DNA from: a virus
Reading direction: 5' to 3' (one strand)
DNA length: 30,228 nucleotides
Virus record (IMG/VR): IMGVR_UViG_3300045996_000861
Location: 1 to 30,228 of that record
The notes beneath the pieces were generated by a model. The model was not told where the DNA came from, did no database searches, and saw only the letters and a program-made list of their open reading frames with translations. The translations under genes were made by a program, and so were the position numbers. Below are positions 12,867-13,326 of this stretch, one piece after another (the stretch's first letter is position 1; every line of letters starts with the position of its first letter).

Positions 12867-12886
12867 TGTAACTAAATTGGTACATT

Positions 12887-12894
12887 CAAATATA
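12887..12894 (-). promoter_or_regulatory. Leftward -7 element for the tail completion gene
   Basis: The minus strand reads CTATATTTGAATG, an exact TAnnTTTG, about 20 bp before ATG 12866. The same string occurs before the MuF-like gene at 20579-20586. It faces a rightward TATATTTG 11 bp away. Confidence 0.55.
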
Positions 12895-12905
12895 GTAAAT
12901 AGTTT

Positions 12906-12913
12906 TATATTTG
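12906..12913 (+). promoter_or_regulatory. Rightward -7 element for the RNA gene
   Basis: TATATTTG on the plus strand is an exact match to the Bacteroidota -7 element. No protein gene follows in this direction. Transcription would begin near 12918 and run through the structured region to the terminator at 13293-13326. A conserved TTGGTACA lies about 26 bp upstream, as in the divergent promoter at 11866-11916. Confidence 0.55.
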
Positions 12914-13056
12914 ATTATTCTTTGTTCGGTCATAGCAGGCAAATGGGATTACCATACCGTAGGACGTCCCCCCGAAGCATTTACCGGGTAATCATAGGCA
13001 AAACAATTGTCTAGTTAAAATGTAAAATAGTGACAGACCGGAAAGACGGTCAATTT

Positions 13057-13222
13057 GAACAGATGGCGAAATTGGTAGACGCAACTGAGAGCGGGTGTAA
13101 ATTAAAAGGAAAAGGCGAGTGTCCAAAGCGATAAGTCCAAACCTACCTCCTGAGGGCCGGAAGGTACCCGAGAGCAATATCAGGCAAGTTAATTTGTGAG
13201 GGTTCGATTCCTTCTCTGTTCA
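13057..13222 (+). tRNA. tRNA-Leu-like element lacking a normal anticodon arm
   Basis: The acceptor halves GAACAGA (13057-13063) and TCTGTTC (13215-13221) pair perfectly and are followed by A at the discriminator position. The D arm is GCG-loop-CGC (13066-13082) with the conserved TTGGTAGA. The T arm is GAGGG-TTCGATT-CCTTC (13198-13214). A class-II variable arm, GCAAG/TTTGT (13184-13197), is typical of Leu/Ser/Tyr tRNAs. Position 27-31 ACTGA can pair with TCAG (13180-13183), but 91 nt lie between them instead of a 7-nt loop, and no standard U33-anticodon loop is visible. Inside the insert CGGGT (13092-13096) can pair with ACCCG (13166-13170). CCA is not encoded. It is probably not a decoding tRNA in this form. 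Confidence 0.55.
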
Positions 13223-13292
13223 CTGGGGGTATGATCGATGACGTATTTTATTGATGCACCAATAAAGTAAAGAGAGACTCCCCAAAGTATTT

Positions 13293-13326
13293 AGCCCTGT
13301 CATTAATTTGATGGGGCTTTATTATA
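13293..13326 (+). terminator. Rightward terminator of the RNA gene
   Basis: A 10-bp stem, AGCCCTGTCA with TGATGGGGCT (two G-U pairs), a 6-nt loop and a following TTATTATA tract. The minus-strand reading lacks a T tract, so it ends rightward transcription. No rightward protein gene precedes it, which supports an RNA gene here. Confidence 0.8.

Follow-up and report, generated by a model that had tools for sequence, protein, structure and literature searches.

The window analysed in this work (i.e., the whole stretch of 30,228 nt, IMG/VR record IMGVR_UViG_3300045996_000861) is a virus record of 30 kb, in which genes for head, connector and terminase are found. Between the neck/tail-completion gene and a tail gene lies a stretch of 455 nt that holds a tRNA-Leu-like element. 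In most relatives these two genes abut or nearly so (0–20 nt), and in others an HNH-type ORF or small ORFs are found between them; since its contents vary in this way among relatives, from nothing to an HNH-type ORF or small ORFs, the gap looks like a cargo site. One relative (L253) has a tRNA-like of its own elsewhere in the genome. Capsid relatives are numerous in IMG/VR, and the single relative that turned up in GTDB genomes sits in a Flavobacterium MAG, which suggests a Bacteroidota host for the phage. The features of the stretch are the following:

12867–13321 (+): cargo stretch of 455 nt, flanked by two minus-strand genes (tail; neck/tail-completion)
13032–13051 (+): leader hairpin (U)GACA-GACCG-GAAAGA-CGGUC, 5 nt upstream of the tRNA body, missed in an earlier note on this DNA
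13057–13063 (+): acceptor stem, 5′ strand GAACAGA, pairing 7/7 with 13215–13221
13066–13082 (+): D arm GCG-AAATTGGTAGA-CGC, Leu-type, with A14, A15, G18G19 and A20a
13085–13183 (+): replaced anticodon arm, CTGA (13085–13088) and TCAG (13180–13183) around a 91-nt insert
13184–13197 (+): variable region GCAAGTTAATTTGT, 14 nt, class-II-like, with a 3-bp CAA/TTG stem and ending in T48
13198–13214 (+): T arm GAGGG-TTCGATT-CCTTC, five pairs, one of them G-U
13215–13222 (+): acceptor stem, 3′ strand TCTGTTC, and discriminator A73 (13222)
13293–13318 (+): terminator-like hairpin AGCCCTGTCATTAATTTGATGGGGCT followed by TTATTATA, a candidate transcript end (1 found vs 0.5 expected by chance)

Architecture of the element

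Read base by base, positions 13057–13222 (+) bear out the tRNA-Leu scaffold proposed in the earlier note: the acceptor stem is paired throughout, the D arm is of Leu type, and a T arm with TTCGATT and A73 are in place. The class-II variable arm claimed there is also found, as a 14-nt region with a 3-bp stem, and the replacement of the anticodon loop, put at about 91 nt, measures exactly that (13089–13179), as against the 7-nt loop of a normal tRNA. What is left of the anticodon stem is four pairs (CTGA/TCAG), so that the combination of 5-bp anticodon stem, 7-nt loop and U33 is absent from the element. No CCA is encoded after A73, the next bases being CTG. With bacterial tRNA-Leu the element shares the acceptor, D and T arms, A73, A15-U48, G18G19 and A20a; it differs in having the insert for an anticodon arm, no U33 and no decoding loop unless spliced.

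Default ARAGORN calls no tRNA on the element, and a search of the window against Rfam returned neither tRNA nor any known RNA family at this position. A further stem within the insert had also been proposed. Its letters are there (CGGGT at 13092–13096, ACCCG at 13166–13170), but as a structure it is unproven, because the element (MFE z = +0.97) and the insert (z = +1.4) fold no better than their shuffles. The acceptor sequence GAACAGA recurs at another locus (L071, 3014–2776, minus strand), where it is accompanied by an extra insert in the D loop.

Distribution among phages

In a blastn search, the surroundings of the element matched a stretch of Bacteroides phage BS-TP2 that takes in both the upstream hairpin and the D arm. 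This phage has, in an unannotated gap before NinG, a tRNA-Leu-like body of 107 nt without canonical anticodon arm, and BF1-TP2 has a 115-nt element of the same plan; both phages have been sequenced, and their Bacteroides hosts are cultured. An exact pattern scan through IMG/VR, with the leader hairpin followed by the Leu D arm as the pattern, gave 62 stretches in all, corresponding to 54 distinct sites, 47 of which could be resolved to T arm and acceptor (hereafter the window subclass). Across the 54 sites, the hairpin follows the plan UGACN-[4 bp]-G-GAAAGA-C-[4 bp]. Its top pair is formed in all of them (CG 25, TA 18, GC 6, AT 5) and the next three pairs in 53, 51 and 48, a pairing that the search pattern did not demand; the leader hairpin therefore covaries across the 54 sites, linked to Leu-type bodies. 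Among the 47 resolved members, whose elements span 85–196 nt, the acceptor stems covary in 25 different sequences and position 48 is always a pyrimidine (T or C), whilst U33 is found at chance level (11/47) and a canonical 5-bp anticodon stem in just two.

Similar bodies emerged from wider scans. A strict scanner, which demanded a 7/7 acceptor, a T arm and a D arm, was run on 2.1 Mb of viral loci gathered by the Leu D-arm pattern and by the hairpin pattern, and found 69 elements of at least 95 nt (52 of 95–199 nt and 17 longer), some of which are tandem tRNAs or intron cases. The same scanner found none in shuffled sequence, and the tRNA-body architecture is not due to chance. Adding a T-arm pattern brought in many more elements, often several in one phage. 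The latter is also frequent in a second set, built on the scaffold AGTCAGG/CCTGACT and comprising 138 distinct elements with inserts of 19–140 nt. A canonical arm (5-bp stem, 7-nt loop) is present in 7/138 of these vs 335/398 other tRNAs of the same loci, and U33 in 31% of them vs 99% of the normal tRNAs, with a pyrimidine at 48 in 98% and A73 in 96%. Since what the scanners demand is acceptor and T-stem pairing, Y48, A73, U33 and the hairpin serve as independent tests. A15-T48 occurs in 166/177 tRNA-likes. Anomalous elements were also found on bodies of other isotypes (L150, L168, L240), and the idea of a class exclusive to Leu was dropped on account of these and of the baits, which were of Leu type and in part produced the Leu bias of the collection.

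The window element, with its leader hairpin, paired acceptor, Leu D arm, Y48 and T arm and its want of a canonical anticodon arm, is a member of what is apparently a large and undescribed class of anticodon-less tRNA-likes in many phages. That such a class exists, and that it has lost the canonical decoding arm, can be read from the sequences themselves; in the open-licence literature we found no description of it. A cellular origin was considered and rejected, the exact pattern occurring in 0/396 genomes at the order level and in 2/395 at the phylum level, both of the latter being long extended anticodon hairpins. Two Bacteroidota genomes (L448, L449) have tRNA-Leu-like genes of 109–110 nt in which the anticodon arm is extended to a long hairpin, similar in both.

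Genes flanking class elements lie in the element's orientation in 70/82 cases, which fits release by tRNA processing. No partner is constant among the neighbours examined, which include NinG, RusA, endonuclease VII, HNH and an RNA ligase. The more general form of the hairpin (UGACNG-stem-GARAGA-stem) is very common in phages, where it precedes ORFs, tRNA-likes and ordinary tRNAs, and sometimes lies downstream instead (L195, L227); Rfam holds no match to it. The name 'Skipping-rope', a guess for the leader hairpin, was rejected, as hairpin-bearing loci match nothing in Rfam except tRNA and a literature search brought nothing of use.

Inserts

Inserts differ among elements, the majority (131) being singletons, that of the window included, and no dominant motif is shared across the class. 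Several nevertheless recur in different phages, and RNAalifold finds 1, 1, 3 and 5 pairs changed on both sides in four recurring groups (F1–F4). One gut-phage element (L483) has a homologue of 86% identity, insert included, with a compensatory change in the acceptor. Compared with shuffles, the inserts are on average slightly more stable (mean z −0.67, n = 156). The start of the insert pairs with the segment upstream of the T stem at a frequency of 0.36 vs 0.22 when shuffled (4-bp stems), an excess from which we take it that part of the class, the window element included, keeps a closing helix. Insert lengths in the AGTCAGG set show no strong 3-nt phase. Antisense action of the window insert on the phage's own DNA was considered and gave no signal. 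A candidate pseudoknot common to the inserts of the window and of BS-TP2 can be drawn by eye.

Discussion

On balance, we favour a reading of the window element as a non-decoding, tRNA-bodied phage small RNA carrying an exchangeable RNA domain. Since the element belongs to a large class spread over many phages, its conserved tRNA body is probably a carrier rather than a codon reader. Whether such a body would be charged depends on the synthetase, and the statement of the earlier note that LeuRS does not need the anticodon agrees with a review (PMC9976931), according to which leucylation can do without the anticodon arm, whereas editing needs it. The window element keeps A73, A15-U48, G18G19, A20a and the D/T-loop contacts described in that review, and so has the full identity set of bacterial LeuRS. 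With these positions kept and the anticodon arm dispensable, leucylation by a bacterial LeuRS is plausible.

The same identity set, and the several copies per phage, would also suit a decoy or sponge, i.e., a non-decoding Leu-type body that titrates LeuRS, EF-Tu, the CCA-adding enzyme or a host defence attacking tRNAs. Such a defence would read the acceptor or the elbow, and the insert would merely abolish decoding. A bare decoy, however, has no need of conserved, covarying and structured inserts, nor would it account for different inserts within one phage or for bodies of other isotypes, and we consider it an unlikely explanation.

We find it quite improbable that the element is an intron-bearing tRNA-Leu, the insert of which is spliced out to leave a decoding tRNA; a short intron was among the earlier suggestions. 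In intron mode, ARAGORN does call a tRNA-Leu(CAG) with a 91-nt intron in the window (score 125). Of 1000 shuffles of the insert, 732 also give a call and 86 (8.6%) one with as high a score, and only 6 (0.6%) combine a high score with Leu. Across the window subclass, on the other hand, calls are no more frequent than in shuffles (39/47 vs 410/470) and their scores no higher (mean 54 vs 61). Leu anticodons are enriched among these calls (13/39 vs 54/410), which may reflect ancestry from tRNA-Leu or real splicing, and for this reason the intron reading is retained at the low level given. The product of the proposed splicing would have an anticodon stem paired at 4/5 positions and would lack a long variable arm; splice sites and anticodons vary between class members, with U33 at chance, and inserts range upwards from 19 nt without a common core. 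The tRNA-Leu of cyanobacteria is interrupted by a group I intron at the anticodon loop. The window element resembles it in the place of interruption, but its insert is much shorter and without conserved intron core, and no group I or II intron is matched by Rfam in the window, even with E values as high as 10 allowed across the element.

A Leu-type body that does look split by a homing-type intron, and that speaks for the intron reading, is that of Dulem virus 42 (L127, 1510–2126), where the apparent halves of the anticodon loop are about 530 nt apart and a NinG/HNH-type ORF, annotated as NinG, lies between them. At another locus (L465, 1916–3260) a tRNA-like follows the end of an RNA-ligase gene at a distance of about 110 nt, an arrangement that could be relevant to splicing or to the repair of RNA.

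A degenerate, functionless tRNA-Leu gene, a reading to which the near-normal anticodon arms of some class members and the poor folding of the window insert lend themselves, is disfavoured and in our view highly improbable, given the covariation of acceptor and hairpin, the invariable Y48, the retention of A15-T48 and the conservation of inserts with compensatory changes. The tmRNA-like device once suggested is not supported: ARAGORN -m finds none, the D arm is full and no tag reading frame was identified. The window element and tmRNA are alike in coupling a tRNA-like body with a large non-tRNA domain, whereas the signals of the window element are of LeuRS rather than AlaRS type.

If the element is indeed a non-decoding carrier RNA, its life could run as follows. 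RNase P would cut just 3′ of the leader hairpin, RNase Z would trim the 3′ end, and CCA would then be added. The L-shaped body would make for a stable RNA, probably leucylatable and useless for codon reading, and the insert, differing between elements, would do its work by binding RNA or protein partners in the course of infection. Phages would thereby employ one tRNA body as a general-purpose carrier and exchange the insert. Processing, charging and function are here inferred. The hosts of these phages are reported to lack Hfq.

A broader proposal, which we put forward tentatively and hold with rather less than even confidence, is that of a modular carrier system in phages, many of them of Bacteroidota, in which leucylatable non-decoding bodies bear interchangeable functional RNA domains, a genome often has several of them, and the conserved leader hairpin serves as a processing or loading signal. 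Default tRNA finders miss these elements, and a sizeable class of phage RNA seems so far to have gone unnoticed. Were the body charged yet non-decoding, tRNA identity would be separated from decoding in nature, and the element would be a natural counterpart of the engineered tRNA scaffold.

Such engineered scaffolds, too, place an RNA where the anticodon stem-loop was, for the sake of stability (e.g., PMC3753655); the phage elements, however, are natural, their inserts are diverse and partly conserved, and they come with a leader hairpin. Unusual cloverleafs are likewise known from allo-tRNAs and other non-canonical tRNAs of bacterial and metagenomic sequence (PMC7609411), which differ in that the anticodon arm is kept and decodes, and phages go unmentioned in that review. 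In two large-phage contigs (L044, L089) we also observed a tRNA with an extra hairpin in its anticodon loop.
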